Part shown: positions 5,607 to 29,945 of the stretch, in pieces
How positions within the stretch are numbered: the stretch's first letter is position 1
Layout: every line of letters starts with the position of its first letter
Assembly (NCBI GenBank): GCA_029932675.1
Contig: JAOZPP010000019.1
Span: forward strand, 1 to 42,801
DNA: 42,801 nt
Reading direction: 5' to 3'
Source of the DNA: a bacterium
GTDB lineage: Bacteria; SM23-81; DAOVCL01
The notes under the pieces: model-generated
What the model saw: only the letters and a program-made list of their open reading frames with translations
The model's database searches: none
Told to the model about the DNA's origin: nothing
Position numbers and translations under genes: made by a program

Positions 5607-5704
5607 GCTCAGCGATACAGGAACACATTCAAGGGGGCGGAGCTTGTTTTTGCTATCTGAGGCTACTCTGCCCGAGGGTCGGAGTCCAAAACTGCCGAGA
5701 AAGC

Positions 5705-5733: not shown

Positions 5734-5781
5734 AGGCCAGTTGAAGAGGATAGGTTGAAGGTCTAAAATGGAGGAGCAAAG

Positions 5782-6956: not shown

Positions 6957-7050
6957 CAGATCGAACAAGCCCAGGATTGCGGAACGGGAGAGGCAAACCC
7001 CCTGCAAAACTGAGCACTAAGGGTAATTGATTTCCAATTTGAAGGAAAAG

Positions 7051-7647
7051 ATGGGAGTTGCGGCAATAGTTTTGGCCGCAGGGAAGTCGGAGAGGATGGG
7101 CACACTGAAACCCCTTCTCCCCGTGGGGACCTCCAACTTCTTAGGGACAATAATGGAGAACCTCAGAAGAGCCGGCACAGAGGAGATCATAGTAGTCCTG
7201 GGCTACGAAGCGGAGAGGATTAAACCCCACCTACCACCAGAAGCGAAATGGGTGGTAAACCAGCATTATAAGAGGGGACAGCTCTCCTCCCTAAAAGCGG
7301 GATTAAAGCTCCTCCCTCCCGATGTAGGAGCCTTTCTAATGGTTCTTGTTGACCATCCTTTGGTTTCCGTGGCCACCTATAAAGCAATCATTAACCTACT
7401 CACCAGAGGGGCACCCATAGTGCTCCCCAAATATAGGGGGAAGAGGGGGCATCCAGTTGGTTTTAGCTCCAAGTACATAAAGGAGCTGCTCGATGCACCG
7501 GAAGATATTGGAGCTCGATTTGTCATAAAGAAGAATCAACAAAGTATCGTTGAGCTTCCTGTAGAAGATGAATATGTCATCTGCAACATTAACACAAGGG
7601 AAGATTACGAAGGATACATAAACAAGGATATCAAAGGACAGGGATGA
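7051..7647 (+). CDS. mocA: MocA-type molybdenum cofactor cytidylyltransferase
   Basis: The 198-residue enzyme is of the NTP-transferase (MobA-like) fold. The nucleotide-binding signature VLAAGKSERMGTLKPLLP is at the N-terminus, the metal-binding LVDHPLVS near residue 107, and GKRGHPVGFSS further on. MocA converts molybdopterin to the cytosine dinucleotide form used by xanthine-dehydrogenase-family enzymes, and its gene commonly sits beside them. The ATG at 7051 with AAGGA upstream is preferred over a TTG at 7027. The stop overlaps the start of the Mo-subunit gene (ATGA, 7644-7647), so cofactor enzyme and apo-enzyme are translationally coupled. Confidence 0.92.
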   Translation: MGVAAIVLAAGKSERMGTLKPLLPVGTSNFLGTIMENLRRAGTEEIIVVLGYEAERIKPHLPPEAKWVVNQHYKRGQLSSLKAGLKLLPPDVGAFLMVLVDHPLVSVATYKAIINLLTRGAPIVLPKYRGKRGHPVGFSSKYIKELLDAPEDIGARFVIKKNQQSIVELPVEDEYVICNINTREDYEGYINKDIKGQG

Positions 7648-9920
7648 GCGTCATTGGGAAAAGTGAAATTAGAAAAGATGTGCGGTTAAAGGTTACCGGA
7701 AAGGCGGTATATATCGATGACCTCTCCTTTCCAGAGATGCTCTGGGTCAAGGTGGTGCGGAGCCCCTTACCTCATGGCTTGATCAAGAGATTTAACCCCT
7801 CCTCTGCGCTGGCTGTTCAGGGGATAGTCTCCGTTCTCACCTATAAGGACATTCCCGGAACTAATGTAGTTCCCATAGTCCTTATGGATCAACCCCTTCT
7901 GGCAGAAAAGGTAGTAAGGTATATCGGTGAGCCAATTGCCCTAATAGCCGGGGAAGACCGTCAGGCTATCGAAGAAGGGGCGCGGGAGATAGATATCGAA
8001 TTTGAGAAACTTCCACCAATTTTAGACCCACTGATGGCGATGAAGGAGGATTCACCAAAGATTTATGGAAAGGACAATATCTTCTCCCATCATCGGATAA
8101 GGAGGGGCAATATCCGGCAGGGGTTTGAGGAATGCGATCTGGTCGTGGAAAACAGATATACCACCTCATATCAAGAGCATGCCTATATAGAAACCCAGGG
8201 AGTGATCGCTGTCCCTTACGAGGGGAGGATGAAGATCTACGGCTCCCTGCAATGTCCTTTTTACGTGCAACACGCCGTCTCCTCCGTGTTGGGACTTCCT
8301 TATAGCCAGATCGAGGTAATTCAAACCACTACTGGTGGAGCATTTGGGGGCAAAGAGGATGTTCCCTCTTTGGTCGCCTCCCAGGCTGCTTTGGTTGCTT
8401 TCCACACTAAGAGACCGGCCAAACTCATTTATACCAGAGAAGAGGACGTTGAGTCTATGAGCAAGCGCCATCCAGCGGTGATCGATTATAAATCCGGGGT
8501 AACCAAGGAGGGCTATTTAAAGGCTGTCCAAGTGAAATATGTGCTTAATGCCGGTGCCTACAGCACCTTAAGCCCTATTGTCCTTTGGAGGGGAACAGTC
8601 CATGCGGTAGGTCCATACAAATGTCCAAATGTCAAGGTAGATTCCTATGCAGTAGCGACAAATACAGTCCCTTGCGGGGCGTTTAGGGGATTTGGTATGC
8701 CCCAGATCACCTTTGCCATTGAATCTCAGATGGATGAATTGGCCAACAGGTTGCATATCGACCCAATTGAGTTCAGACTGAGGAACATCCTCAGAAAAGG
8801 CGATAGAACCGTTACCGGCCACCTTATAAAGGAGAGTATGGAGTTGGAGAAAACCCTCAAAAAAGCTTCTCAAATCGGATGGAAGAGGGAAAGGGAGATA
8901 TCAAATGGTTATAAAAAAAGGGGAATGGGTATTGCCTGTAACTATTATGGCGTCGGATTGGGAGCAGGGGGGAGACACTTAGCCAAAGCGGGAGCATGGG
9001 TCAGCGTCCTCTCCGATGGTTCGGTAAACTTCGCTGTAGGCACAACTGAGATGGGCCAAGGTATGGAAACTGTCCTCTCCCAGATCTTAGCCAATGAGTT
9101 AGGGGTTAAATATGAAAGGGTCTCTATGGTGCCTACCGCCACGACCCAGGTCCCAGATAGCGGCCCGACAGTAGCCTCACGGGCTACAGTAATGTCAGGA
9201 AACGCTCTGATAAAGGCGGCAAGACCAATAAAAAAGAGCATCATGGAGGTTGCCTCTAAGATGTTAAAGTCTCCCATATCAAAGGTTAAATTGGCAGATG
9301 GCTATGCTACCAGTGGAACTAAAAGGATAGGGTTGGATGAGGTAATAGATAAATGTTTTCAGCAGAGGAAGATCATGTCCTCTCAGGGGTGGTACAAGGC
9401 ACCATATACCTCCTGGAACAAAGCCACCGGTCAAGGGAAGCCATACTTTGTATATTCCACAGGGACAAACTTAGCAGAAGTTGAAGTGAACACCCTCACC
9501 GGGGAGGTCACCGTCAAAAGGATCATCGCCGTTCATGATGTGGGAAAGGTAATCAACCCTCAAACGGCAGCAGGACAGGTAGAGGGTGGGGTGTTACAAG
9601 GGATTGGCTATGCCCTCTTTGAGGATATGGCCCCCGCGGGGGGCAAGATCCTGAATACTAACTTCTCCACCTATATCCTTCCCACTGCAAAAGATGCCCC
9701 AGAGATAGTCTCTAACTTCATAGAGGACCCCTACCCTCAGGGACCGTTTGGGGCAAAAGGTTTAGGGGAACAACCCATCATTGGAGTAGCACCGGCTGTG
9801 ATCAATGCCATATTTGATGCCACTGGTGTGAGAATAAGGGATCTACCAGCAACCCCAGAGAAGATCATAGCTGAGTTAAACAGCCACCATCCGACTTTTA
9901 TACCATTAGGACGCAGATAA
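7644..9920 (+). CDS. xdhA: Xanthine dehydrogenase-type molybdenum-binding subunit (first enzyme)
   Basis: The 758-residue protein has the complete two-domain architecture of molybdenum hydroxylase large subunits. Visible cofactor motifs are GGAFGGKED (about residue 235), GAFRGFGMPQ (about 350) and GPFGAKGLGEQP with the catalytic Glu near residue 709. QEHAYIETQ and the Arg of AFRGFG correspond to the substrate-contacting Glu and Arg of true xanthine dehydrogenases, so this paralogue is the better candidate for a xanthine/hypoxanthine hydroxylase. The ATG overlaps the mocA stop. The matching [2Fe-2S] subunit follows after a 136-bp gap, and FAD subunits lie further downstream. Substrate is inferred from motifs and context. 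Confidence 0.9.
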   Translation: MSVIGKSEIRKDVRLKVTGKAVYIDDLSFPEMLWVKVVRSPLPHGLIKRFNPSSALAVQGIVSVLTYKDIPGTNVVPIVLMDQPLLAEKVVRYIGEPIALIAGEDRQAIEEGAREIDIEFEKLPPILDPLMAMKEDSPKIYGKDNIFSHHRIRRGNIRQGFEECDLVVENRYTTSYQEHAYIETQGVIAVPYEGRMKIYGSLQCPFYVQHAVSSVLGLPYSQIEVIQTTTGGAFGGKEDVPSLVASQAALVAFHTKRPAKLIYTREEDVESMSKRHPAVIDYKSGVTKEGYLKAVQVKYVLNAGAYSTLSPIVLWRGTVHAVGPYKCPNVKVDSYAVATNTVPCGAFRGFGMPQITFAIESQMDELANRLHIDPIEFRLRNILRKGDRTVTGHLIKESMELEKTLKKASQIGWKREREISNGYKKRGMGIACNYYGVGLGAGGRHLAKAGAWVSVLSDGSVNFAVGTTEMGQGMETVLSQILANELGVKYERVSMVPTATTQVPDSGPTVASRATVMSGNALIKAARPIKKSIMEVASKMLKSPISKVKLADGYATSGTKRIGLDEVIDKCFQQRKIMSSQGWYKAPYTSWNKATGQGKPYFVYSTGTNLAEVEVNTLTGEVTVKRIIAVHDVGKVINPQTAAGQVEGGVLQGIGYALFEDMAPAGGKILNTNFSTYILPTAKDAPEIVSNFIEDPYPQGPFGAKGLGEQPIIGVAPAVINAIFDATGVRIRDLPATPEKIIAELNSHHPTFIPLGRR

Positions 9921-10056
9921 ACAGGACAAAGAGTTCAAGCATAAAGAACTGACGGCGAAACTTTCTATAGGCTCTATAACAAATTGTGACCGCAGAAAAA
10001 AGAACTTGAAAAACCTTGATAATCTGCGAAGATCTGTGTCCTAAAAATAATACCGC

Positions 10057-10572
10057 ATGATCAAGGTAAAGTTCAAAGTCAATACAGAGGAAAGGGAGAT
10101 AGTCACCGAGCCCACCAAGACCCTCCTGGAGATCTTGAGAGATGATCTGGGGCTAAGGGGGACAAAGGAGGGATGTGGTAAGGGTGAATGTGGTGCCTGC
10201 ACAGTCATTATGGATGGCAAACCAGTAGTCTCCTGTCTTGTCCTTGCCTGCCAGCTCGCTGGCTGCCAGATAACCACGATCGAAGGGCTCTCCCGGGATG
10301 GAAAGCTTGACCCCGTTCAGGAGGCATTCATTGAGGAGGGCGCGGTGCAATGTGGGTTCTGCACACCGGGGATGATCCTCTCCGCAAAGGCATTGTTAAT
10401 GGGGAATCAAAATCCAACCGATGAGGAGATAAAGGAGGCCATATCAGGCAACCTCTGCAGATGCACGGGTTACATCAAAATCATAAAGGCCATCCAGAAG
10501 GCAGCAAAAGCCCAAAGGGCAGCCCTTGCTCCGAATACCTCTGGAGGAACCCGGAAAAACAGGGATCAGTAA
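10057..10572 (+). CDS. Molybdenum hydroxylase [2Fe-2S] subunit (first enzyme)
   Basis: The 171-residue protein has the two iron-sulfur domains of the family. The plant-ferredoxin-like domain shows GCGKGECGACT and a fourth Cys in VVSC; the helical domain shows CGFCTPGM and CRCTGY. All eight cluster cysteines are present. It transfers electrons from the molybdenum centre to FAD. A hydrophilic tail of about 20 residues after the helical domain is unusual compared with the second copy (155 residues). No clear ribosome binding site precedes the ATG. Confidence 0.93.
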   Translation: MIKVKFKVNTEEREIVTEPTKTLLEILRDDLGLRGTKEGCGKGECGACTVIMDGKPVVSCLVLACQLAGCQITTIEGLSRDGKLDPVQEAFIEEGAVQCGFCTPGMILSAKALLMGNQNPTDEEIKEAISGNLCRCTGYIKIIKAIQKAAKAQRAALAPNTSGGTRKNRDQ

Positions 10573-10598
10573 GCATAAGGTGAAATAACCAAGCATAG

Positions 10599-11381
10599 AT
10601 GGCGAAGATATACAAGGAAATATTAAACCTCTCTGATCGGGGGGAAGCCATTGCCCTGGCCACAGTGGTGGAGTCCTTAGGCTCCAGCCCGCAGAAGGCG
10701 GGGGCAAAGATGATAATAAAGGATGACGGGAGTACAATTGGGACAGTGGGAGGTGGTCAGGTAGAATTCACGGCCATCCGGGAGGGAGTGGAAGCGATTA
10801 AAACAGGGACTCCCAAACTCCTGGAATTTGAACTGAAAGAAAGTGAGGGTTTACTCTGTGGGGGAAGGATGAAGATATTTATCGAACCGATCTTAACCGA
10901 TCCCCACCTCTACATCTTCGGCGGAGGCCACGTTGGTCAGGCTTTATCAAAAATCGCTTCCACAGCAGGATTTGAGGTAACGGTAATTGAGGAAAGGGAA
11001 AAGTTTATTACCAGCGAAAGGTTCCCCGAAGCTAAGGAACTCATCTTAGGCCCCTATGAAAAGATTATACCCAACCTACCCCTAAATCAGAATTCCTACA
11101 TTGTAATTGCCACTCATAGCCATAAGTTGGATGAAATAGTGCTCAAGGGCTGCTTGAAAAGGGACTACAACTATATTGGGATGGTGGCCAGCAAGGAGAA
11201 GGCAAAAACCATCTTTCATAGGTTAATGGAGGAGGGCGTTTCTCAGGAACGATTGAAGGAAGTCCATGCGCCAATTGGCTTAGCGATTGGTTCCCAAACA
11301 CCTGGGGAGATTGCCATAAGCATAATGGCAGAGATAATCTCTTTTAGAAATTCAAGGGGGGGAAACAGAACCAAGGGGTGA
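10599..11381 (+). CDS. XdhC/CoxI-family molybdenum hydroxylase maturation factor
   Basis: The 260-residue protein has an N-terminal XdhC/CoxI domain with TVVESLGSSPQKAGAKM and GTVGGGQVE (the XdhC form; CoxI relatives carry GGCVE), then LLCGGRMKIFIEP. The Rossmann domain follows from about residue 100, with IFGGGHVGQAL and the C-terminal PIGLAIGSQTPGEIAISIMAEI signature. Family members bind molybdenum cofactor, support its sulfuration and insert it into xanthine dehydrogenase. Its place between the subunits of two hydroxylases suggests it serves both. In some naming schemes it is called XdhC, not to be confused with the iron-sulfur subunit. Confidence 0.92.
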   Translation: MAKIYKEILNLSDRGEAIALATVVESLGSSPQKAGAKMIIKDDGSTIGTVGGGQVEFTAIREGVEAIKTGTPKLLEFELKESEGLLCGGRMKIFIEPILTDPHLYIFGGGHVGQALSKIASTAGFEVTVIEEREKFITSERFPEAKELILGPYEKIIPNLPLNQNSYIVIATHSHKLDEIVLKGCLKRDYNYIGMVASKEKAKTIFHRLMEEGVSQERLKEVHAPIGLAIGSQTPGEIAISIMAEIISFRNSRGGNRTKG

Positions 11382-11471
11382 GGGAGGGATAATCCGACTA
11401 GGTGCTTCGCACAGGGGGCAAGACTGCCAGTACTCTCTGGAGAAGTTAGCGACTGCAAGGGGCTAAGTGGG

Positions 11472-12326
11472 ATGAAGGTATATTCACCGGAAACTATAGA
11501 GGAAACCACGAAAATCCTTGGCAAGCTGAAGGGGAATGTTCACCTTTTGGCCGGGGGAACAGACTTAGTGGTCAAGGTAAAAGAGGGAACCGTTCTCCCT
11601 GAGAACCTTATCAACATCAGGAAACTTCCCCTTGATTACATCAAAGAGGAGGGAAACCAGCTAAGGATAGGTGCACTAACTTCCATAGAGACAATCCATA
11701 GGTCAAAGCCAATTAGAACTTATGCCCCAATACTTTCTGACGCCGCAGGGAAGATGGGATCCCCCCAGATAAGAAACCTGGCCACCATAGGGGGGAATAT
11801 AGCCAATGCCTCTCCGGCTGCTGATACTGTTCCCCCTCTTTTCGTTTTGAATGCCCAAATTGTTTTAAAAGACCAAAAGGGCAGTCGGGTTATCCCCATC
11901 GAAAAATTTTTTTCGGGGCCTGGGGAGAACGTGATGCGGAGGGATGAGATACTCATGGAGATAACCTTTAGGAAATGTGCCCAGAGCGATGAGTGGTTCT
12001 TTAGCAAGCTTGGCCAAAGGAAGGCGTTGGCTATCTCCAAAGTATCCTTGGCCTTTAGGGGAAAAGTTAACCAGAACAGACTAACTGATGTATCCATAGC
12101 GTTGGGGGCTGTAGCTCCCACTGTCATCTATGCGCAGAGGACAGCAAGGTTCTTAGAGTCAAAAACATTTGATTCCGCACTCATCGACGAGGCAAGCAGA
12201 ATCATCCAAGAGGAAGCATCCCCCATTTCAGACATCCGCTCTACCTCCGAATATCGAAGAAGAATGGTCGGAGCCCTTCTTAAGCAGGGACTATGGGAGC
12301 TAAAAGCAGGAGTTTCTCCGGATTGA
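11472..12326 (+). CDS. Molybdenum hydroxylase FAD-binding subunit 1
   Basis: The 284-residue protein is of the CO dehydrogenase/xanthine dehydrogenase medium-subunit family. FAD-pyrophosphate motifs are LLAGGTDLVV (about residue 26) and NLATIGGNIANASPAAD (about residue 100). The CO-dehydrogenase C-terminal domain follows, with KLGQRKALAIS and SEYRRRMVGALL near the end. It passes electrons from the [2Fe-2S] subunit to NAD or another acceptor. It is followed four bases later by a second FAD subunit. This full-length copy most resembles partners of xanthine dehydrogenase, but which Mo subunit it serves cannot be read from sequence. Confidence 0.92.
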   Translation: MKVYSPETIEETTKILGKLKGNVHLLAGGTDLVVKVKEGTVLPENLINIRKLPLDYIKEEGNQLRIGALTSIETIHRSKPIRTYAPILSDAAGKMGSPQIRNLATIGGNIANASPAADTVPPLFVLNAQIVLKDQKGSRVIPIEKFFSGPGENVMRRDEILMEITFRKCAQSDEWFFSKLGQRKALAISKVSLAFRGKVNQNRLTDVSIALGAVAPTVIYAQRTARFLESKTFDSALIDEASRIIQEEASPISDIRSTSEYRRRMVGALLKQGLWELKAGVSPD

Positions 12327-12330
12327 CCTT

Positions 12331-13137
12331 ATGAGAAGAATCAAAAACTATTTAAGACCAAAATCAATCAAAGAGGCATATAGGGCCTACCAAGAAGGGA
12401 AGGCCGTCTTCCTCGCTGGAGGAACATTGTTGACTCAGAAGAGAAACATCGAAATCGATAGCTTGATCGACCTTCAAGATCTAAAACTTAATTATATCAA
12501 AGTAAAGGATGAGACCATCCACATTGGCGCAATGACCACAATCACTGAGGTTGCCGAATCAACAATCCTTACCCGTTCAGCATCGGGGATATTGAGCAAG
12601 GCGGCCAAACGGTTGGGTTCCCCTGCAGTAAGGAACTTTTCCACCATTGGAGGCAATATAATGTCGAGGGTTTACTGGAGCGATATCGTCCCAGTCCTCT
12701 TAGCTGTGGAGGCCAATCTCTTCCTCTTTGATGGGAGCACCCATAGAGTGGGGATCGGTTCCTTTTTGCAAGCCCCCCGATTTAGGGGGATGCTCTTAGT
12801 AGAGATAACCGTACCTATGGAGGGAAGGGGGTTCTACCGGAGGTTTTCCAGAACTGAGGTGGACATCCCCCAAGTTGTCTGTGTTCTTACCCAATTGAGG
12901 GGGGTTCACGCTGTGGTGGGTGGGCTCTGGAAGATCCCTCAGAGGATAGAAGGCCTGGAGGGGGAAATAGAAAAAGGAGGGGCAAAGGAGGATAAGATAA
13001 AGGAATTGATCAAAAGGGAGGTAAAGGCATTCTCTGACCTCAGGGGGGATGCGGAATTCAAAAAAGAAGTTGCTTCCACCTTATTTATTGACATTATCTT
13101 AAAAGAATCAAAAAATACCCCTGAATTCCCCGCTTAG
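12331..13137 (+). CDS. Molybdenum hydroxylase FAD-binding subunit 2
   Basis: The 268-residue protein is a diverged relative of the preceding FAD subunit. FAD motifs are VFLAGGTLLTQ near residue 26 and NFSTIGGNIMSRVYWSD near residue 107. The C-terminal domain is shorter and less conserved; the family's usual KLGxRxAxxIS stretch appears as FYRRFSRTEVDIPQVV. The start lies four bases after the previous stop with no separate ribosome binding site, so it probably relies on coupling. The low conservation resembles E. coli YgfM, the FAD-subunit homologue of the ssnA/xdhD region, but I cannot decide orthology by eye. Confidence 0.85.
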   Translation: MRRIKNYLRPKSIKEAYRAYQEGKAVFLAGGTLLTQKRNIEIDSLIDLQDLKLNYIKVKDETIHIGAMTTITEVAESTILTRSASGILSKAAKRLGSPAVRNFSTIGGNIMSRVYWSDIVPVLLAVEANLFLFDGSTHRVGIGSFLQAPRFRGMLLVEITVPMEGRGFYRRFSRTEVDIPQVVCVLTQLRGVHAVVGGLWKIPQRIEGLEGEIEKGGAKEDKIKELIKREVKAFSDLRGDAEFKKEVASTLFIDIILKESKNTPEFPA

Positions 13138-13340: not shown

Positions 13341-13808
13341 ATGCTAATCGAAGTCACTATAAACGGTATTCTCAAGAGTTTTGAAACCTCCCCGGGAGAG
13401 ATACTTCTCGACCTATTGAGAAGGGAGGGGTATAAAAGCGTAAAAAGAGGGTGTGAAACGGGTGAATGTGGAGCCTGCTCCATAATCTTGGATGGCAAAC
13501 TGGCAAAATCTTGTCTCCTCTTTGCCCCGCAGGTCTCAGGCCACGAGATCGTCACCCTGGAAGGAATGGAAAGTTTCAGCAAGCTCCATCCCATTCAGAG
13601 GGCATTTCTTGATGAGGGTGCGGTGCAATGTGGATTTTGCACCCCGGGGATGATATTGGCAGCAAAAACCCTTCTGGAGGGAAACCCCCATCCCATGGAG
13701 GAGGAGATAAAAGAGGCCATCTCTGGCAACCTCTGCAGATGCACAGGATATATAAAGATTATCAGGGCAATAAAAAAGGCAGGAGAGATCCTGAAGGGAA
13801 ATGTTTAA
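13341..13808 (+). CDS. Molybdenum hydroxylase [2Fe-2S] subunit (second enzyme)
   Basis: The 155-residue protein has all eight cluster cysteines: GCETGECGACS plus KSC in the first domain, CGFCTPGM and CRCTGY in the second. It has the standard length for the family and lacks the hydrophilic tail of the first copy. It follows a 203-bp gap after the FAD subunit and overlaps the next Mo-subunit gene by 8 bp, so these two form one translational unit. A second enzyme alongside the first suggests two purine hydroxylases of different specificity. Confidence 0.93.
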   Translation: MLIEVTINGILKSFETSPGEILLDLLRREGYKSVKRGCETGECGACSIILDGKLAKSCLLFAPQVSGHEIVTLEGMESFSKLHPIQRAFLDEGAVQCGFCTPGMILAAKTLLEGNPHPMEEEIKEAISGNLCRCTGYIKIIRAIKKAGEILKGNV

Positions 13809-16107
13809 GGAAGTAGGAAGAAATGTCCCCCGGGTCGATGGATACGCTTTAGTTAGGGGGAAACCGGTGTTTACCGACGATATAGACCTTAAGGATATGC
13901 TCTTTATCAAATTCCTGCGCAGCCCTCACCCCCACGCCATAATCAAAAGCATTGACACCAGCCAAGCAGAGAAGATGGAAGGAGTTGCGCTTGTCCTCTC
14001 CTATGAGAATGCCCCCCGGGTTCCCCACACGACCGCTGGGCAGGGGTATCCGGAGCCCTCTCCTTACGATACCGTTATGTTTGACAGGAAGGTGAGGTTC
14101 GTGGGCGATAGGGTAGCCTGCGTGGCAGCCACATCCCCGGAGGTAGCCGAGGAGGCCACAAAGAAGTTATCTGTTGAATATGAAGTGCTTCCTCCAGTAT
14201 TCGATCCGGAATGGGCAATGAGGGATGGAGCACCAATCATCCACGATGAAAAGGATTCCCAGGGGATCCTTGACCCCCAACACAACTTAGTGGGAGAGGT
14301 GGAAGTAAAAGTGGGAAGCCTGGAAAAGGGGTTCAAGGAGGCAGATGTGATCCTGGAAAGAAGATATGAGGTTCACTACGCCCAGCATACGCCCATCGAG
14401 CCGCACATCGTTATCACTTGGCTTGACGAGAATGGACGGCTGGTGATTAGATCGGCAACCCAAGTTCCCTTCCATACCCGCCGCATATGCGCAAATGTCT
14501 TGGGAATTCCAATTCAGAGGATAAGGGTAGTCAAGCCAAGGATAGGAGGCGGTTTCGGCGTCAAACAGGAGGTTTACCTTGACTATGTAGCGGGCTGGAT
14601 TACCTTGCAGACTGGCAGACCGGCTAAGATCGAACTTACCCGAGAGGAGGAGTTTATCTCCAGGACGAGACATCCCATAATTACCCTCCTCAAGGCCGGA
14701 GCAAAGAGGGATGGCACACTCACCGCCTTAGATATGCGGATTCTGTCTAACACTGGTGCTTATGGTTCACACGCTACCACGGTGATGTATAACACTGGGA
14801 GTAAGGTCCTGCCCCTTTATCGATGCCCCAATGTCAGGTTTCAGGGGAGGGTGGTCTATACCAACCTCCCGGTGGCCGGTGCCTATCGGGGATATGGGGC
14901 CACCCAGGGATATTTCGCCACGGAATCTATGCTCGACGAACTGGCCGAAGAGATCGGGATGGATCCAGTTGAACTGAGAAAAGAAGTCCATATCAAAGAG
15001 GGGGAAACATCGCCCATATTTCAAGCCCTTGGTGAAGGCAGAGAGGGGATTTCCCAAGTGATAAGCTCCTGTAAACTTCCCCAATGCATAGAGGAAGGCC
15101 TTAAACTCATTGGATGGAAGAAGAAGCCTAAAGAAGAGGGACGGATGAGTAGGGGATATGGGTGTGCAATTATGATGCAGGGCTCAGGTATTCCAGCAAT
15201 AGATATGGGAGCGGCCCTGATCAAGATGAACGAAGACGGTTCCTTTAATCTCCTTGTCGGAGCAACCGACTTGGGCACCGGTTCGGACACCATCCTGGCC
15301 CAAATAGCCGCAGAAGCTCTCAAGGTCCCCACGAAAAAAATTATCGTCTATTCATCGGATACAGACCTCACCCCCTTCGATGTCGGGGCATACGCCTCCT
15401 CGACGACTTACATCTCTGGGGGGGCTGTTCTGAAGACGGCCGAAAGGGTCCTTGAGGAGATCATCCGCATTGGAGGGGAAATGCTAAACGAAGCCGAGGG
15501 AGAGCTCATTGCCAAAGATGCTCAAGTGATAAGCAAGAGGACAGGGAGATCGGTCACCTATGAGGAAATAGCCAAAAATTCCTTATACGAAAGGGATCAA
15601 CACCAGATAATTGGCTCTATGTCCCATATCTCCTCCCAGTCCCCCCCTCCCTTTGCCGCCCATTTTGTGGAGCTCCTTGTAGACCGGGGAACGGGAAAGG
15701 TAAAAGTAGAGAGATATGTGGCCTGTGTTGATTGTGGCACCCCGATCAATCCCAAACTCGCCGAGGGGCAAGTTGAGGGATCGATAATAAATGGAATCAG
15801 CTATGCCCTCACCGAGCAATTTATCTTTGACAAAAACGGAAGGATGATGAATGCATCGTTCCAAGATTACAAGATATTTTCGGCAATGGATATCCCGGAG
15901 CTAAAGGTCGTTTTAATCCCCTCCCATGAACCATCGGGTCCTTTTGGGGCAAAGAGCGTGGGAGAGGTAAACATAAATGGGCCTTGCCCAGCAATTGCCA
16001 ATGCAATCTGGGATGCTATTGGGATTAGGTTTAGAGAGACACCTTTCACACCAGAAAGAATCCTCAGGGCACTAACCTTAGGAGGGAGCAGTGGGGCTAG
16101 AACTTGA
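13801..16107 (+). CDS. Molybdenum hydroxylase Mo-binding subunit (second enzyme)
   Basis: The 768-residue protein has the cofactor motifs GGGFGVKQE (about residue 250), GAYRGYGATQG (about 360) and GPFGAKSVGEVN with the catalytic Glu near residue 722. Compared with the first paralogue, the substrate-pocket segments differ: QHTPIEPH replaces QEHAYIETQ, and AYRGYG replaces AFRGFG. This is nearer to aldehyde-oxidoreductase or other purine-hydroxylase types than to classical xanthine dehydrogenase. It overlaps the iron-sulfur gene upstream by 8 bp and adenine deaminase downstream by 17 bp, tying it to purine metabolism. The actual substrate is open. Confidence 0.88.
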   Translation: MFKEVGRNVPRVDGYALVRGKPVFTDDIDLKDMLFIKFLRSPHPHAIIKSIDTSQAEKMEGVALVLSYENAPRVPHTTAGQGYPEPSPYDTVMFDRKVRFVGDRVACVAATSPEVAEEATKKLSVEYEVLPPVFDPEWAMRDGAPIIHDEKDSQGILDPQHNLVGEVEVKVGSLEKGFKEADVILERRYEVHYAQHTPIEPHIVITWLDENGRLVIRSATQVPFHTRRICANVLGIPIQRIRVVKPRIGGGFGVKQEVYLDYVAGWITLQTGRPAKIELTREEEFISRTRHPIITLLKAGAKRDGTLTALDMRILSNTGAYGSHATTVMYNTGSKVLPLYRCPNVRFQGRVVYTNLPVAGAYRGYGATQGYFATESMLDELAEEIGMDPVELRKEVHIKEGETSPIFQALGEGREGISQVISSCKLPQCIEEGLKLIGWKKKPKEEGRMSRGYGCAIMMQGSGIPAIDMGAALIKMNEDGSFNLLVGATDLGTGSDTILAQIAAEALKVPTKKIIVYSSDTDLTPFDVGAYASSTTYISGGAVLKTAERVLEEIIRIGGEMLNEAEGELIAKDAQVISKRTGRSVTYEEIAKNSLYERDQHQIIGSMSHISSQSPPPFAAHFVELLVDRGTGKVKVERYVACVDCGTPINPKLAEGQVEGSIINGISYALTEQFIFDKNGRMMNASFQDYKIFSAMDIPELKVVLIPSHEPSGPFGAKSVGEVNINGPCPAIANAIWDAIGIRFRETPFTPERILRALTLGGSSGART

Positions 16108-17815
16108 AGAGATGATAGAAGTGGCCAGAGGGGAAAAGCCCTGTGATCTCCTGTTAAAAAACGGTAAAATCGTCAACGTCTTTGCCGGGGAGATCCACGA
16201 CGGCAATGTGGCCATCTATAAGGGGAAGATAGCGGGAATTGGTGACTACAAAGCAAGGAAAAACATAGACTTAAAGGGAAAATATATTTGTCCAGGCTTC
16301 CTCGATGGCCATGTCCATATAGAGAGCGCGATGGTCACTCCACCGGAATATGCCCGTGCGGTTGTCCCCTTGGGAACAACCACAGTGGTCATAGATCCAC
16401 ACGAAATCGCCAACGTATTGGGGCTGGAAGGGATTAAATATATGCTGGAGACGAGCGATAACCTCCCACTCAACGTCTTTGTTATGCTCTCTTCCTGTGT
16501 TCCGGCAACCGATATGGAAACTTCCGGGGCCAGGCTTTCCGCCTTTGACCTCAGACTTCTCCTTGATGAACCACGTATCCTTGGACTTGGGGAACTGATG
16601 AATTACCCCGGTGTAGTGCATAGGGCCCCAGAAGTTATGGACAAGATAAGGGCAGCACGGGGTAAGCTCATCGACGGACACGCCCCCAAATTAGGTGGTA
16701 AGGATCTCAATGCCTACATCGCTGCGGGGATTAAGTCCGATCACGAGTCCACTACTTTAGAGGAAGCCCGGGAGAAGCTGAGGATGGGAATGTACATTAT
16801 GATCAGGGAAGGGACGACTACAAAGAACTTGCAGTCCCTTCTTCCTTTGGTGAAACCAGGAAGGAACTCATCCCGCAAATTGTTCTTTGTCACGGACGAC
16901 CGACATCCCTATGACCTCCTCCAAGAAGGACATATCAATTTTATGATCAAGATGGCTATTAAGTCGGGGATAAATCCAGTAACTGCCATTCAGATGGCGA
17001 CAGTAAACGGCGCAGAATATTTTAAACTCAAGGACTTAGGTGCTGTGGTTCCAGGATATAGGGCCGATATAATTGTCCTCGATAACCTAAAGGATTTTAA
17101 CATCCTCTCCGTATTTAAAGATGGCAAACTCGTTGCCTCAGAGGGGGAAATACACCCGGGGGTAATAAAACCGATATCTGTTCCCTTAAGGAGCACTATT
17201 AACACCGCCTGGATAGAAAAGGAACATTTTAAAATTAAGGCAAGGGGGAAACTGGTAAAGGTAATCGAGATTGTTCCAAACCAACTTATTACCAGGAAGA
17301 GGATTGAGGAAATCAAGATAATCGATGGGCAGGCTGTTTCTGATCCAGAGAGGGACGTCTTGAAAGTAGCTGTCATTGAACGGCACCTGGCATCAGGAAA
17401 CACAGGTTTAGGATTTGTGAGGGGAATAGGGCTTAAAAGAGGGGCAATTGCCTCATCAGTAGCCCATGATTCACACAATATCGTGGTCGTGGGGACCAAC
17501 GACGAGGATATGTACACGGCAGCGGTGAAGATCGTGAAGCTGCAAGGAGGGCTGGTTGTAGTGGAAAACGGAAAAATCATCGAGGAGCTACCCCTCCCCA
17601 TTGCTGGATTGATGACCGGAAGGAAACTTGAGGAGGTAGAGGATAAAATCCAAGCCTTGAATGCGGCTTGCCGGAGATTAGGGGCCAAGGTTAAAGATGC
17701 ATTTATGGTCCTCTCCTTCCTCGCCTTACCAGTAATTCCGGAAATTAGGGTAAGCGATAAGGGGATAATAGATGTGGTAAAATTCCAACTCGTCCCCCTC
17801 TTTGGAGAAAATTAA
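16091..17815 (+). CDS. ade: Adenine deaminase
   Basis: The 574-residue enzyme belongs to the amidohydrolase superfamily and converts adenine to hypoxanthine and ammonia. Metal-site motifs are PGFLDGHVHIESA (about residue 70), IDGHAPKLGG (about 195), KSDHES (about 217) and FVTDDRHP (about 275). The C-terminal adenine-deaminase domain contains VAHDSHNIVVVGTND near residue 460. Length agrees with bacterial Ade (about 580). The start is GTG at 16091, with AGGAGGG six bases upstream, inside the end of the Mo-subunit gene, so translation is likely coupled. Together with the hydroxylases it supplies an adenine to hypoxanthine to oxidised-purine route. Confidence 0.95.
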   Translation: MGLELEEMIEVARGEKPCDLLLKNGKIVNVFAGEIHDGNVAIYKGKIAGIGDYKARKNIDLKGKYICPGFLDGHVHIESAMVTPPEYARAVVPLGTTTVVIDPHEIANVLGLEGIKYMLETSDNLPLNVFVMLSSCVPATDMETSGARLSAFDLRLLLDEPRILGLGELMNYPGVVHRAPEVMDKIRAARGKLIDGHAPKLGGKDLNAYIAAGIKSDHESTTLEEAREKLRMGMYIMIREGTTTKNLQSLLPLVKPGRNSSRKLFFVTDDRHPYDLLQEGHINFMIKMAIKSGINPVTAIQMATVNGAEYFKLKDLGAVVPGYRADIIVLDNLKDFNILSVFKDGKLVASEGEIHPGVIKPISVPLRSTINTAWIEKEHFKIKARGKLVKVIEIVPNQLITRKRIEEIKIIDGQAVSDPERDVLKVAVIERHLASGNTGLGFVRGIGLKRGAIASSVAHDSHNIVVVGTNDEDMYTAAVKIVKLQGGLVVVENGKIIEELPLPIAGLMTGRKLEEVEDKIQALNAACRRLGAKVKDAFMVLSFLALPVIPEIRVSDKGIIDVVKFQLVPLFGEN

Positions 17816-18038: not shown

Positions 18039-18059
18039 AAGAACTTGATTGAGGGAGGT

Positions 18060-19361
18060 ATGGATTTAAGCTTTAAGGAAACAAAAGGGGCGATGACTGA
18101 AACCCAGGCCGTTCTTGAAGCATCAAGATGCCTATTATGTGAGGATGCACCCTGCAACAGGGGCTGCCCAGCAGGTATTGATGTAAAGAAATTCATCCGG
18201 GCAATCAGGTTTGAGAACTTCCGCAGAGCAATAAACCTGATCAGGGAGAAGAATATTCTGGCTGGCGTTTGCGGGATAGTATGTCCGAGGGAAGTGCTCT
18301 GTGAAAGGGAATGCTCAACAACTAAACTCTCTACTCCAATAAAAATCGGAGACCTGCAGAGGTTTGTTGCAGAAAAGGATTATACGGCAAGGTTTAAATC
18401 TTTACCCCAGATCAAGAAAAACAAGATAGGGGTAGCTGTAATTGGTGCGGGTCCAGCCGGTCTTTCCTGTGCGGCTGAGCTGGCCACCCAGGGATTTGAG
18501 GTGACAATCTTTGAGAAAAGGGATAAATTGGGTGGAGTTCTCACCTATGGAATTCCCCTCTATCGGCTTCCCAGGCAAATGCTCAGACACGAACTCGACT
18601 ATGTTAAGAAATTAGGGGTAAAAATCAAGAGAAATAAGGCAGTTGATAACCTTGACGAGATATTTGATGCTGGATTCAGGGCAGCATTCATTGGGGTGGG
18701 GCTGGGGAAACCGTTGTCCTGTGGGATCCCGGGTGAGGAGCTAAAGGGTGTTGTAGCTGCGTTAGAATTCTTGAGAAATTTCAACGAGAATTCCGAGAGA
18801 ATAGAGATTGGTAAGCGGATAATTGTGATCGGCGGGGGGAGCGTAGCAATGGATTGTGCCTGCTCTGCATTGAGGGTGGGAGCCAAACATGTCGACCTGG
18901 TCTGTCTGGAAGGGCCAGATGAACTGCCAGCCTTTAAGCAAGAGATAGAGCAGGCGGAGAGCGAAGGAGTAAACATCCACCCCAGGTTTATGCCCTTAAA
19001 AATCTTGAGCAAGAATGGAAAAGTTAGTGGATTAGAAGCAGTGAAGATTGAGTGGAAGATCCCCGGTAGGTTTGTTCCTGAGAACGCAGTTGAAATAAGG
19101 GGAAGCACTCTAACTTTAATCGGGGATACAATAATTGAGGCAGTGGGTCAGGCCCCTGAGGAGAATCCACTGCTAAGGGGATTAAAGAGGGATAGAGGAT
19201 ACTTAGTGGTCAATGAACAAATGATGACCTCCAAGACGGGAGTCTTTGCTGGAGGGGATATAATTGCCTCGAAAGTCCCCAGAACTGTAGTCCAATCAGT
19301 CGCCGAAGGCAAAAAGGCTGCCCAGGCAATCACCGCCTATTTAAAAAATTCCAATGCATAA
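18060..19361 (+). CDS. preT: PreT-type dihydropyrimidine dehydrogenase subunit (glutamate synthase small-subunit-like)
   Basis: The 433-residue protein has an N-terminal [4Fe-4S] region with cysteine clusters [19 protein letters not shown] and [16 protein letters not shown] (about residues 25-90). An FAD-binding [16 protein letters not shown] follows near residue 130, an NAD(P)-binding [13 protein letters not shown] near 260, and the closing FAGGDI motif near 395. It matches E. coli PreT in length and order; PreT and PreA form an NAD-dependent dihydropyrimidine dehydrogenase. The start at 18060 gives the N-terminus expected from PreT, although GGGAGG lies only one base before it; TTG 18045 is an alternative. 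Its partner preA is 6.6 kb away rather than adjacent. Confidence 0.9.
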
Positions 19362-20826: not shown

Positions 20827-20857
20827 GCGTTTGATCTTTAAAAGGCAGGAAAAGAAA

Positions 20858-25014: not shown

Positions 25015-25480
25015 CATCCCAGTTTTAATAGCAGAAATTAAGGATGAAATTACCAAGTTAAGACGATTACAGGATAAACTGGAAAAACTACCAAAGATTG
25101 ATCCTCAAAAAGAGGAAATAGTAGAAAGTGCGGCTCTGAAACTCCATAATTTCTACACCGGATGTGAGCGTATCTTCCAACTTATTGCCAGAGAAGTAAA
25201 TGGAGGAATTCCTGAAGGCTACGACTGGCACAAGAGACTGCTTACTCAAATGTCTTTGGAAATTGAAGGTGTAAGGCTAAAGGTTATTTCACAGCAAACA
25301 GGCCAGGATTTAGAGCCATTACTTGCCTTCAGACATATTGTGAGAAGCATTTATGGATACGAACTCGATGCAGGAAGAGTGAGTCTGCTTGTTAAAAAGG
25401 CCATTAGCTTATATCCTACTTTGCAAGCGGAAATTGAAAAGTTCTGCGATTTCCTCCATCAGTTATATGAACACCTGTAG
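24998..25480 (+). CDS. HEPN-like (HepT-type) partner of the nucleotidyltransferase
   Basis: This 160-residue, all-helical protein overlaps the nucleotidyltransferase gene by 17 bp. Near residues 111-124 it has FRHIVRSIYGYELD, the position of the HEPN R-x4-6-H motif and of the tyrosine (Tyr119) that MntA-type enzymes modify. In this protein R112-x4 leads to Ser117, not His, so the canonical RX4HXY becomes RX4SXY, although His113 is adjacent. Known HepT toxins are RNases; this one may have altered or lost activity. Other members with RHxxR-x2-Y are familiar to me, so it may be a subfamily trait. The pair is best read as toxin-antitoxin. Confidence 0.75.
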   Translation: MKGKSSIPVLIAEIKDEITKLRRLQDKLEKLPKIDPQKEEIVESAALKLHNFYTGCERIFQLIAREVNGGIPEGYDWHKRLLTQMSLEIEGVRLKVISQQTGQDLEPLLAFRHIVRSIYGYELDAGRVSLLVKKAISLYPTLQAEIEKFCDFLHQLYEHL

Positions 25481-26016: not shown

Positions 26017-27240
26017 ATGAAGTATCACGAAATTGAACTTGGAGTGGATTTCTGTGGGCTAAAGCTCGAAAACCCTTTCATCTTAGCGGCAGCTCCCCCA
26101 ACTGATGATCTCGATATGGTCAGACGTGGCTTTGAAGCTGGTTGGGCTGGAGCGGTCTTAAAGACTACGTCTGTAGAGGGAACACCCGTTGACCTTGTCT
26201 ATCCCATGATCTCATCCCTGAATTTTGAAGGGAAGAGGATAGTCGGCCTGGGAAACATAGACCTGATTTCCGAGCATCATATCGATGAAATAGAAGAAAG
26301 GGTAAGGACCCTTAAAAAAGAGTTTCCCCAGAAAATCGTAGGAGCATCGATAATGGGGGCAGCGAAAAAGGATTGGCAAGATCTGGTAAAGAAATTAGAA
26401 GGGGCCGGGGTTGACCTTATAGAGTGCTCATTTTCCTGCCCGCAGGGGAGTATGGGGGAGGAACCTGGGGCTATGCTTGCCCAATCTATTACCGCCACTG
26501 AAAAGGTTACCAGATGGGTAAAGGAAGCAGCAGAGAGGGTTCCAGTAGTCATCAAGATCACCCCCCAGGTCACTGATATAGTAAGTGTAGCCAGAGCAGT
26601 AAAGAGAGGGGGAGGGGATGCCATCTGTGCCTCCAACACCATCCCCTCCTTGATGGGAATTAACCTCGAGTCCCTTGCCCCCTACCCAAATGTGCGGGGA
26701 AAGTCCTCCTATAGTGGGCTAAGCGGACCGGCAATCAAGCCAATAACCTTAAGGATTATATCAGAGATAGCCAAAAACGTGAACATTCCCATCACCGGAA
26801 CAGGGGGACCTACCACCTGGAAGGATACAGTTGAATTCTTCCTCGTGGGGGCAAGGACTGTCCAATTTGCCACCGCCGTGATGCACTATGGGTATGACAT
26901 AATTGAAGATCTCATCGATGGTTTAGCCTTTTATTTGGAAGAGAGGGGATTCAACGGGGTCGAGGAGATTATCGGGAGAAGCCTCCCTCATATCGTCACC
27001 CACGGCGAGCTAGAAAGGAAATCCGTTATTTCCCAAATTGATGAAGAACTATGTGTCAGATGTGATGCCTGTTATATCGCCTGCCAGGACGGAGGACATC
27101 AGGCGATAAAGCTGGAGAGGGAGGATAGGCTTCCAGAGGTTGATGAGGAAAAATGTGTGGGATGCGGGCTGTGTGCCAGCGTCTGTCCAGTGGAGGCCAT
27201 TACCCTGAAAGAGACAAATAACTTCGGACGGGATAGATAG
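26017..27240 (+). CDS. preA: PreA-type dihydropyrimidine dehydrogenase catalytic subunit
   Basis: The 407-residue protein has an FMN-binding dihydroorotate-dehydrogenase-like barrel: LENPFILAAAPPTDD at about residue 16, then ECSFSCPQGSMGE with the active-site Cys near 135. The barrel's phosphate-binding glycine stretches TGTGGPTTWKD and GARTVQFATAVMHYG follow. The C-terminus has two [4Fe-4S] ferredoxin motifs, CVRCDACYIAC and CVGCGLCASVCP. Length agrees with E. coli PreA (411). The start at 26017 has AGAGGAGAGGA upstream; an upstream in-frame extension to 25870 is encoded by repeat copy C. The role is reduction of uracil/thymine or the reverse, together with PreT. Confidence 0.93.
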   Translation: MKYHEIELGVDFCGLKLENPFILAAAPPTDDLDMVRRGFEAGWAGAVLKTTSVEGTPVDLVYPMISSLNFEGKRIVGLGNIDLISEHHIDEIEERVRTLKKEFPQKIVGASIMGAAKKDWQDLVKKLEGAGVDLIECSFSCPQGSMGEEPGAMLAQSITATEKVTRWVKEAAERVPVVIKITPQVTDIVSVARAVKRGGGDAICASNTIPSLMGINLESLAPYPNVRGKSSYSGLSGPAIKPITLRIISEIAKNVNIPITGTGGPTTWKDTVEFFLVGARTVQFATAVMHYGYDIIEDLIDGLAFYLEERGFNGVEEIIGRSLPHIVTHGELERKSVISQIDEELCVRCDACYIACQDGGHQAIKLEREDRLPEVDEEKCVGCGLCASVCPVEAITLKETNNFGRDR

Positions 27241-27399: not shown

Positions 27400-28725
27400 A
27401 TGGCGATCTTAATTAAAAACGGAATTCTCATCACCCTGGGGGAAAGGGCTCAAGTCCTGGAAAATGGGGCCCTCCTGATTGAGGGGGAGAAAATCAAGGA
27501 ATTCGGACCGACTAATAAGGTCAGAAAACCGGCCGGAGCAGAGGAGATCGATGCCTCTGGTAAGGTCATCATGCCTGGCCTGATCTGTGCTCATCATCAT
27601 CTATATTCCGCCTTTGCGCGGGGGATGAAGCCCCCCAGAGAGCCAGCAAAAGACTTCAAAGAGATACTGGAGAAGATCTGGTGGAGGTTAGATGGGGAAC
27701 TAACTGCTGAGGACATCTATTACAGCTCCTTGGTTTCCCTGATTGAATGTGTAAAAAAAGGGACAACAACGGTCTTTGACCACCATGAGTCCCAAGCCTA
27801 TCAACTGGGAAGCTTAGATGAGATCCAAAGGGCCACCGAGGAGGTAGGGGTGAGAACTTGCCTCTGCTTAGGGGCCTCAGACAGGTATGGAAGAGGCCAC
27901 CAAGGGGTTGAGGAGAACAAAAGGTTCCTTAAAAAATTAGGAAAGGAGAGGGGATTGGTCAGTGGCATGGTGGGGTTGCATGCCTCCTTTACGGTGGGAG
28001 ATGAGACTCTGGATCGATCAGTAGAGGTAGCGCAAAAATATGATTGTGGAATTCACCTCCACATCGCTGAGGACAGGATCGATGAGGATGATAGTTTAAG
28101 AAAATATGGATTAAGGGTAGTAGAGAGACTGGCGAAACACAGCGCCTTAGGGGAGAAATCGATTGCCGTTCATTGCGTAAATATCGATGAAAGGGAACAA
28201 GATATATTGATGGAGACTGGGACAAATGTGGTGAATAACCCGGAATCAAATATGAACAATGCCGTGGGCTGTGCTGATGTCTTGGGGATGATCGGCAAAA
28301 GGATCTTGGTCGGATTGGGAACAGATGGCATGTCTGCAGATATGTTGTCCCAGATGAGGGTCGCCTACATGATTTACCGGCATAGCGCTGGTGATCCCCG
28401 GGTGGGATTCTCCGAAGCTGGGGAGATGCTCTTCAAGAACAACCCGGAAATAACCAAAAGGATCACCGGCTGGAAGGTAGGGAGAATTGAGCAGGGTTGG
28501 CTGGCTGATATAATCTTAATTGACTACTCCCCCCCTACCCCACTCCACCCCCAAAATCTCCTCGGCCATTTAGCCTTTGGCATGGTCAACTCTTCGGTCG
28601 ATACAACAATCTGTAACGGAAAGATACTGATGAGGAATAAAAGGTTAGTGGGAATGGACGAAGAGAGAATAACTCAGAAATCGAAGGAACTGAGCAGGAA
28701 ATTATGGGAAAGGTTAAGCTGTTAA
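27400..28725 (+). CDS. ssnA: SsnA-type aminohydrolase
   Basis: The 441-residue amidohydrolase has the usual metal motif PGLICAHHHLYSAFARGM near residue 59. It continues with HLHIAED near 219, VHCVN near 255 and GLGTDGMSAD near 308. Length and order agree with E. coli SsnA (442), which lies in the purine-degradation region with mocA and xdhD homologues. SsnA is thought to deaminate a purine breakdown intermediate, and its exact substrate is still not settled. A ribosome binding site AAAGAAAG precedes the ATG. The gene overlaps the next one by 22 bp. Confidence 0.9.
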   Translation: MAILIKNGILITLGERAQVLENGALLIEGEKIKEFGPTNKVRKPAGAEEIDASGKVIMPGLICAHHHLYSAFARGMKPPREPAKDFKEILEKIWWRLDGELTAEDIYYSSLVSLIECVKKGTTTVFDHHESQAYQLGSLDEIQRATEEVGVRTCLCLGASDRYGRGHQGVEENKRFLKKLGKERGLVSGMVGLHASFTVGDETLDRSVEVAQKYDCGIHLHIAEDRIDEDDSLRKYGLRVVERLAKHSALGEKSIAVHCVNIDEREQDILMETGTNVVNNPESNMNNAVGCADVLGMIGKRILVGLGTDGMSADMLSQMRVAYMIYRHSAGDPRVGFSEAGEMLFKNNPEITKRITGWKVGRIEQGWLADIILIDYSPPTPLHPQNLLGHLAFGMVNSSVDTTICNGKILMRNKRLVGMDEERITQKSKELSRKLWERLSC

Positions 28726-29945
28726 GATGCGTAAGCTGTGGCAGAGAATATCTGCCAGAGGATGTTCATTATACCTGTCCCCATTGTGGTGACCTCTTGG
28801 GAACTCTGGATGTAATCTATGACTATGAATCAATTTGCCAAGAGCTCACCAGGGAGTCCCTTAGTTCTACGGAAGATTTCTCTATCTGGCGGTACCTTCC
28901 CATTCTACCTGTGGAGAGGGAGGACTATATCCAACCCCTGCATACCGGTTGGACCCCCCTATCCAGATTCGCTCGCCTGGAAACTGAACTGAAATTAAAA
29001 AGGTTATGGGTAAAGGATGATACTCGGAATCCCACTGCTTCGTTGAAGGATAGGGCAAGCTCAGTAGCAATAGCAAAGGCATTAGAGCAGGGGGCTGAGG
29101 TGGTCACCGCCGCATCCAGTGGCAACGCCGGCTGTTCTATGGCCGCATTTGCCGCCTGTGCGGGGATAAGATCATACATATTTGTCCCCGCCACTGCCCC
29201 CAGGGCAAAGCTTGCTCAGCTCATTGTGTTCGGGGCAAATGTGCTCCTGGTTAAGGGCACCTATGACCAAGCTTTTGAACTTTGCCTAAAAGCATCTAAA
29301 AGGTGGGGGTGGTATAGTCGGAATACGGCCTACAATCCTTACTTAGGAGAAGGGAAGAAGACGGTTGCTTTAGAGATAGCAGAGCAACTCGGCTGGAAGG
29401 TCCCTGATAAGGTCTTTGTCCCTGTAGGTGATGGGTGTATCATCAGCGGGGTATGGAAAGGATTCTTTGACCTACAGAAATTGGGGCTAATCGAGGGATT
29501 ACCTTCTCTTATTGGAGTCCAAGCCGAGGGAAGCGCCCCCTTGGTGCATGCATTTGAGGAGGGTAAAACCCTTGTGGAACCCATAATTCCCCATACGATG
29601 GCCGATAGCATATCAGTGGGTAACCCCAGAGATCAGCTAAAGGCATTGAGGGCGGTAAGGGATACTGGAGGTAGATTCATCTCTGTCTCCGATGATCAAA
29701 TCAGAACCGCAATGAAGCTTTTGGCCAAATCAACCGGTATATTTGCTGAACCGGCAGGGGCCACTGCTTTAGCTGGACTAGCCAGGGCAATTGGTGAGGG
29801 TTGGGTTGATCCCGCCGAAGAGATAGTTATCCTGGTAACGGGAAGCGGATTAAAGGATATAGAAGCCCTAAATTACAAAATAGAAGAGGAAGCAATATTA
29901 GTTGAGCCTTGCATAGAAGCAGTAGAAAGGGCATTAACTCGATAG
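28704..29945 (+). CDS. Threonine-synthase-like PLP enzyme coupled to ssnA
   Basis: The 413-residue fold-type II PLP enzyme has an N-terminal zinc ribbon (Cys9, Cys12, Cys25, Cys28), the PLP lysine in NPTASLKDRASS (Lys115), a phosphate-binding SSGNAG near 140, and VPVGDGCIISG near 240. This is the domain arrangement of threonine synthases. The gene begins inside ssnA, 22 bp before its stop, with AGGA at a good distance, so it is translated with the purine enzymes. In the comparable E. coli region the PLP enzyme is diaminopropionate ammonia-lyase (YgeX), another fold-type II enzyme. It may be a genuine ThrC or a paralogue doing an ammonia-lyase step. Fold assignment is firm, the reaction is not. 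Confidence 0.85.
   Translation: MGKVKLLRCVSCGREYLPEDVHYTCPHCGDLLGTLDVIYDYESICQELTRESLSSTEDFSIWRYLPILPVEREDYIQPLHTGWTPLSRFARLETELKLKRLWVKDDTRNPTASLKDRASSVAIAKALEQGAEVVTAASSGNAGCSMAAFAACAGIRSYIFVPATAPRAKLAQLIVFGANVLLVKGTYDQAFELCLKASKRWGWYSRNTAYNPYLGEGKKTVALEIAEQLGWKVPDKVFVPVGDGCIISGVWKGFFDLQKLGLIEGLPSLIGVQAEGSAPLVHAFEEGKTLVEPIIPHTMADSISVGNPRDQLKALRAVRDTGGRFISVSDDQIRTAMKLLAKSTGIFAEPAGATALAGLARAIGEGWVDPAEEIVILVTGSGLKDIEALNYKIEEEAILVEPCIEAVERALTR

Follow-up and report, generated by a model that had tools for sequence, protein, structure and literature searches.

The reductive pathway of uric acid degradation was solved in 2025 (PMC12507026) and, in the parts of that report drawn on here, the systems of Escherichia coli and Clostridioides difficile include XdhD/YgfM, UacX, SsnA, HyuA, YgeW and carbamate kinase, together with YgeX (diaminopropionate ammonia-lyase), whose E. 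coli representative acts equally on L- and D-diaminopropionate. The stretch of DNA analysed here, hereafter the window, comprises positions 1 to 42,801 (42,801 nucleotides) of contig JAOZPP010000019.1 from the bacterial assembly GCA_029932675.1. On its plus strand a gene for a pyridoxal phosphate (PLP) enzyme of the threonine synthase (ThrC) family starts at 28704, inside ssnA, which ends at 28725; the 22-bp overlap described in an earlier reading of the letters alone (the sequence-only reading) was thus confirmed. The genome from which the window comes (G000) shares XdhD/YgfM-like, UacX, SsnA, HyuA, YgeW-like and carbamate kinase proteins with the described pathway, but differs from it in having no YgeX, in possessing a ThrC-family and a CysK-like PLP enzyme, and in having the genes on two contigs. 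We consider it very probable that the window enzyme, a member of a clade here called U-type, is something other than an ordinary threonine synthase and has its place in reductive purine breakdown.

By profile and by structure the window enzyme is a ThrC relative. It passed the ThrC family profile TIGR00260 (238.2 bits, cut-off 167.1) and the NF006050 'threonine synthase' model (338.6 bits, cut-off 303), matched PF00291 with 262.8 bits, and gave a predicted structure (mean pLDDT, the model's own confidence score, 92.8) whose best solved matches were threonine synthases, headed in Foldseek by 2zsj, the Aquifex ThrC (E 6e-33). With the ThrC proteins of Thermus thermophilus (1UIM), Aquifex (2ZSJ) and Bacillus subtilis (6NMX) it shares the fold, the PLP lysine and about 32-39% identity, and it has a zinc-ribbon N-terminus that is found in part of canonical ThrC; among 75 U-type relatives the ribbon cysteines C9, C12 and C25 are each kept in 73 and C28 in 31. 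These matches speak for the view that the protein is simply the threonine synthase of the organism, placed beside ssnA by chance or for co-regulation. In contrast to the solved ThrC proteins, however, it stands in a separate clade, has its substrate-phosphate ligands replaced, is linked to uric acid genes and comes from a genome without hom or evident thrB. With YgeX it has in common the fold-type II PLP architecture and the position within the pathway gene set, but it is only 22.6% identical over 310 aa and has no TTDGNH motif, and was rejected as a YgeX orthologue (NF006058, 67.7 bits against a cut-off of 276). Cysteate synthase, a ThrC relative acting on a C3 amino acid, was likewise rejected as an identity, the window enzyme scoring far below the family cut-off (TIGR03844, 102.2 bits against 324.9).

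The replacement of the ligands was followed in 24 canonical and 75 U-type proteins, with residues numbered as in T. thermophilus ThrC. Canonical proteins carry K61, T88, N154, S155, R160 and N188, of which T88, S155, R160 and N188, present in 24/24, are what we take to be the ligands of the O-phosphohomoserine phosphate. The active-site roles in ThrC are said to go back to Omi (2003), and the mechanism of YgeX reportedly to Bisht (2012). U-type proteins have lysine at 61, and in all 75 alanine stands at 88, alanine or glycine at 155, leucine, methionine or threonine at 160 and aspartate at 188, with N154 in 69; since T88, R160 and N188 defined both classes, and S155 the canonical class also, the uniformity at these positions is by construction. 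The U-type class was defined without reference to alanine or glycine at 155 or to the changes of Q164 to K, F134 to Y and A194 to G, yet each of these is found in 75/75. At the four ligand positions (88, 155, 160 and 188) the window enzyme has A142, A209, L214 and D243. Loss of the arginine together with gain of an invariant aspartate in the former phosphate pocket would fit a substrate with a neutral or positive side group, such as albizziin or diaminopropionate. The combination A142, L/M/T214 and D243, in window numbering, is usable for correcting annotation.

Phosphate ligands are changed too in a further ThrC clade, the NNRY-type (L88, N155, Y160, S/G188), whose rows L030-L034, L036, L040, L043-L045, L047-L049 and L058 are from Acidimicrobiia and relatives; because two members found elsewhere adjoin thrB, the phosphate ligands of ThrC may be more variable than has been supposed. 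At L101 (genome G019, 3578-8834), thrB and thrA are flanked by two ThrC-family genes, one NNRY-type and one canonical.

Trees were drawn from 52 named loci, the window's phylum (three of its four genomes, that of the window included), paralogues in 38 genomes and 40 Chloroflexota loci, with the fragments L059, L060, L061, L149 and L150 excluded. E. coli-type ThrC, YgeX and further long-branching sequences were kept out of a 78-row tree, for which 10 of the 40 new U-type rows from Chloroflexota were taken, together with 11 of the 21 NNRY rows and 7 of the 27 'other' rows. In this tree all 45 U-type rows formed one group (support 100/99), as did all 15 canonical ThrC rows (100/99), the 11 NNRY-type rows (100/100) and the 7 SLKEPYR-type rows (100/100). 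The same four groups were recovered in a tree of 44 rows, with fewer taken from these sources, after removal of seven diagnostic columns, and in that set a grouping of the window enzyme with canonical ThrC was rejected (p-AU 0.00024). An initial, quickly built tree with 103 rows of all types gave a 35-row U-type group with SH-aLRT 93, not starred. The tree check proposed in the sequence-only reading thus places the window enzyme in a distinct clade apart from housekeeping ThrC.

Threonine supply in the window genome (3.03 Mb, 97% complete) was examined with PF00742 and PF00288 only. No PF00742 match, and thus no homoserine dehydrogenase, was found in it, while 14/14 control genomes were positive, and no ThrB was evident, both GHMP kinases (PF00288) looking by eye, from their sequences, like IspE and a sugar kinase; there is therefore no evident O-phosphohomoserine in this organism. 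Among its six PF00291 proteins the window enzyme alone matches TIGR00260 at 1e-30, and the second, canonical thrC beside thrB or hom that the sequence-only reading had proposed to look for was not found. That reading had named, as grounds for abandoning it, a tight grouping with housekeeping ThrC of the only thrC in the genome, with thrB elsewhere; the protein is indeed the only TIGR00260 match, but it does not group tightly with housekeeping ThrC and no thrB is evident. In 20 of 35 U-type genomes the genome also encodes a canonical ThrC, as defined by signature. Housekeeping ThrC identity was thus rejected on the tree, the ligand loss and the missing hom and thrB, and that the window enzyme makes the organism's threonine is, in our judgement, most improbable.

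The link to uric acid breakdown was measured in Chloroflexota, the phylum surveyed evenly (301 genomes; E <=1e-100 for U-type, <=1e-80 for SsnA and <=1e-40 for YgeX; six of 47 matches, at 38-41% identity, were not counted as U-type). U-type proteins were found in 41 genomes, SsnA in 51 and both in 38; U-type thus occurred in 38/51 SsnA genomes against 3/250 others (G048, G190 and G221), and SsnA in 38/41 U-type genomes against 13/260 without U-type (Fisher p 1.7e-33, overstated as the genomes are related). The U-type signature was confirmed in 40/40 of the genomes whose locus DNA was examined. YgeX, found in 16/301 genomes and in 7/51 with SsnA, is rare among SsnA genomes of this phylum, where 34 had U-type only, four both and three YgeX only. 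A panel of 38 genomes, which took in 34 of the 52 named loci, gave YgeX in one (G011), hom in 25 and an SsnA-family match in 35, of which 16 exceeded the curated cut-off; these counts are biased as all but four genomes were chosen for carrying a U-type protein or relative.

Neighbouring genes across phyla agree with this association. Seven core genes (SsnA, YgeY, carbamoyltransferase, carbamate kinase, HyuA, YgfK and the CysK-like PLP protein) were counted within 10 kb of 74 U-type loci, the window excluded; at least one lay near 49 loci and at least two near 37. Carbamoyltransferase was the most frequent (39), followed by the CysK-like PLP protein (34), carbamate kinase (29), YgeY (20), SsnA (15), HyuA (11) and YgfK (9), while thrA was nearby in one. 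None of these core genes lay near 22 canonical ThrC loci, where thrA was near eight and thrB near six, the flanks examined there being shorter than for U-type. In Acidobacteriota L028 the order is xdh, ygfK, ssnA, CysK-like, ygeY, carbamoyltransferase, U-type and carbamate kinase, which L035 and L037 repeat from ygfK on; the order is similar in Gemmatimonadota L039, L042 and L063, and SAR324 L056 has U-type with most of the same genes. In another genome of the window's phylum (G002, L013) a single contig holds PreT, UacX, SsnA, a CysK-like protein, two YgeW-like proteins, carbamate kinase and U-type. UacX-like proteins occur in neighbourhoods L013, L038, L051, L052 and L185. SsnA or YgeY lies near U-type in six phylum-level groups (Acidobacteriota, Gemmatimonadota, Chloroflexota, Actinomycetota, SAR324 and the window's phylum), and U-type proteins occur also in Pseudomonadota, Myxococcota and Cyanobacteriota. 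The suggestion that a threonine-synthase-family protein was recruited to the place of YgeX is thus borne out by the separate clade, the absence of hom and evident thrB, the wide association with SsnA and the lack of YgeX in 37 of the 38 panel genomes.

The window itself seems to encode the upper steps of the pathway, namely the conversion of urate to yanthine, the reduction of yanthine and ring opening by SsnA, as judged from its XdhD/YgfM-like, adenine deaminase, PreT-like, UacX-like and SsnA genes (Table 1). The XdhD-like protein has the glutamate matching E606 of E. coli XdhD within a matching local motif, the residue to which the 2025 study of urate-reducing XdhD points in the part of its text drawn on here (PMC12507026). 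The UacX-like open reading frame (ORF) opens at 25870, with homology beginning near the in-frame ATG at 26017, and its product is 66% identical to the protein beside ssnA in G002; the PreT/GltD-like oxidoreductase is likely its electron partner.

Table 1. Coordinates of features in the window and, in the last line, on contig C48 of the same genome
Feature	Position	Strand	Details
U-type ThrC-family PLP enzyme	28704..29945	+	ATG, 413 aa; zinc-ribbon N-terminus; PLP lysine K115; substrate-site A142, A209, L214, D243
ssnA, amidohydrolase opening reduced yanthine ring	27400..28725	+	ATG, 441 aa; NCBIfam matches NF005540 541.5 bits (cut-off 444), TIGR03314 512.5 (cut-off 455.5)
UacX/PreA-like FMN and 4Fe-4S reductase	26017..27240	+	NF006183 462.6 bits (cut-off 335); directly before ssnA
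PreT/GltD-like NAD(P)H oxidoreductase	18045..19361	+	profile matches; order PreT-UacX-SsnA kept in L013
Adenine deaminase	16091..17815	+	TIGR01178 659.4 bits (cut-off 472.5)
XdhD-like molybdenum subunit	13801..16107	+	40.5% to E. coli XdhD, 35.1% to XdhA; E606 motif
[2Fe-2S] subunit of molybdenum hydroxylase	13341..13808	+	
YgfM-like FAD subunit	12331..13137	+	
Second molybdenum hydroxylase set, xanthine dehydrogenase-like	7644..12326	+	Mo subunit, [2Fe-2S] subunit, XdhC/CoxI-type accessory protein, FAD subunit
CysK-like fold-type II PLP protein (L154)	C48, 6588-8060	-	490 aa

As the sequence-only reading had stated, blastp of the window ORFs against the E. coli cluster found no hydantoinase, YgeY or YgeW among them. 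This does not mean that the organism lacks them, since HyuA and YgeW-like proteins lie on contig C48, where genes in one direction encode a PPC-like domain protein (by eye), the CysK-like PLP protein, two carbamoyltransferases, a carbamate kinase above its NCBIfam cut-off and a HyuA-like hydantoinase (TIGR02033, 495 bits, cut-off 393). The genome thus combines SsnA, UacX and the XdhD-like protein in the window with HyuA and YgeW homologues on C48 as marks of the reductive pathway. The two carbamoyltransferases are 34% and 30% identical to YgeW but miss the NCBIfam YgeW cut-offs, their best NCBIfam match, N-acetylornithine carbamoyltransferase, also being below cut-off. As to the suggestion that the downstream route may differ, the steps leading to diaminopropionate seem to follow the described pathway, apart from the presence of two carbamoyltransferases.

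As to the reaction, we lean towards the U-type enzyme being a 2,3-diaminopropionate/albizziin beta-lyase in the usual place of YgeX, an assignment drawn from sequence and gene context. A ThrC-family paralogue would have been recruited to reductive (anaerobic) uric acid and purine degradation where YgeX is absent; its PLP, on K115, would form an aldimine with the free alpha-amino group of 2,3-diaminopropionate, the C3 end product, or of albizziin should the 3-ureido group not yet have been removed, and expulsion of the beta-nitrogen would give aminoacrylate and then pyruvate and ammonia. Locus L017 of Symploca sp. SIO1C2, an organism that has no SsnA, links the family with diaminopropionate, as the U-type gene there overlaps sbnB, which in turn overlaps sbnA, and both Sbn proteins pass models for 2,3-diaminopropionate biosynthesis (TIGR03944, 405.5 bits, cut-off 326.9; TIGR03945, 404.4 bits, cut-off 349.95). 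Two carbamoyltransferases are divergent from sbnA-sbnB, and in L019, a near relative of L017, no ORF of U-type size lies between the same genes.

Alternatively, the U-type enzyme might take albizziin (3-ureidoalanine), the compound one step before, as its substrate and expel urea from it, so that YgeY would not be needed. Albizziin, the product of YgeW, has the required free alpha-amino group according to the part of PMC12507026 drawn on here, and neither the window nor the part of C48 that was read showed a YgeY, the search for it being confined to these two parts of the genome. YgeY lies near 20 of the 74 U-type loci, however, and the two carbamoyltransferases of the window genome could remove both ureido groups, so that we regard urea expulsion as distinctly improbable.

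Several observations weigh against the lyase assignment or against a role confined to uric acid. In Chloroflexota, 14 of 40 loci have no core gene or molybdenum hydroxylase within 10 kb, ten of the 51 SsnA genomes have neither YgeX nor U-type, and YgeX and U-type occur together in four genomes, as they do in G011. Both Symploca genomes carry U-type without SsnA, so that the family evidently extends beyond uric acid breakdown. No canonical ThrC was found by signature in 15 of 35 U-type genomes, and G002 and G003, where, as in the window genome, the U-type protein is the only TIGR00260 match, have a hom-like gene, which would favour a threonine synthase. Finally, the CysK-like family (about 490-520 aa) is present in 31 of 38 panel genomes and, in the window genome, sits in the HyuA/YgeW/carbamate kinase operon, so that it could be the lyase, with the U-type protein having another role. 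This companion is the main uncertainty of the proposed assignment.

The CysK-like protein of C48 is 51-63% identical in most relatives and passes no NCBIfam family cut-off; an AlphaFold model of the relative at L028 (mean pLDDT 79.8) matches O-acetylserine sulfhydrylases. Lengths of some neighbouring ORFs are too long, as the first start codon was taken automatically. If this protein were the diaminopropionate lyase, the U-type enzyme would perform a neighbouring PLP step, for instance racemisation of the D-isomer or beta-replacement of the 3-amino or ureido group, for example by water to give serine. ThrC itself adds water to a PLP-bound intermediate, and the two PLP enzymes recur together. 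An R (D) configuration has also been proposed for the ureido intermediates, as given in the part of PMC12990295 drawn on here. On the other hand, E. coli YgeX alone does the whole step on both isomers, going by the same portion of PMC12507026, and the CysK-like protein is missing from seven of the 38 panel genomes, although in G012 and G026 the U-type contig ends nearby and G002 and G007 have a smaller CysK-like protein (377 aa in G002, in place of the larger family). Such a division, with the CysK-like protein as the lyase, appears to us rather unlikely.

Returning to the U-type enzyme as a beta-lyase, YgeX seems to have been replaced by a pair of proteins, not one. Since YgeX handles both isomers alone, the pairing would make sense if the two were each stereospecific, or were a racemase and a lyase, and U-type and CysK-like enzymes together may cover the D and L isomers. 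We put forward, as a tentative and somewhat doubtful generalisation, that such a ThrC-derived and CysK-like pair, and not YgeX, performs the final step of anaerobic uric acid degradation in many phyla; in some lineages it would be coupled to a pair of carbamoyltransferases through which both ureido groups are conserved as carbamoyl phosphate and, by that route, as ATP.

The 2025 survey identified YgeX in SsnA neighbourhoods by PF00291 and coloured every PF00291 neighbour as YgeX (Figure 3 legend, within the part drawn on here), so that it could not separate U-type from YgeX (PMC12507026). The word 'threonine' was not found in the portion of its main text covered here, and no title or abstract linking threonine synthase to the reductive uric acid pathway was found in CC-licensed PMC text, subscription journals and preprints being outside that scope. 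As 32 of 35 U-type proteins exceed the curated cut-off of the NCBIfam thrC model, automatic annotation is likely to call them threonine synthase. What is probably new is a mis-nameable ThrC-family clade as a variant within a known pathway; if true, proteins mislabelled in this way hide an alternative last step in environmental phyla.

Some further features were noted. The hom-like gene of G002 and G003 (L196, L197) adjoins ketol-acid reductoisomerase-like, IorB-like and aldehyde dehydrogenase-like ORFs (by eye) and neither thrB nor thrC. Inside the purine gene region of the window, 20810-24238 encodes a repeat protein of 1142 aa; by eye, a signal-like stretch stands at its N-terminus and its C-terminal end is sorting-like. 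Two overlapping ORFs lie between the PreT-like and UacX-like genes at 24655-25480, the first of which resembles an MntA-type antitoxin nucleotidyltransferase (below cut-off). An ORF at 19620-20117 resembles a REP-associated tyrosine transposase, and CCTGTTATCCTGTC occurs seven times between 17883 and 27388, once with a mismatch and always on the plus strand, where chance would give none.

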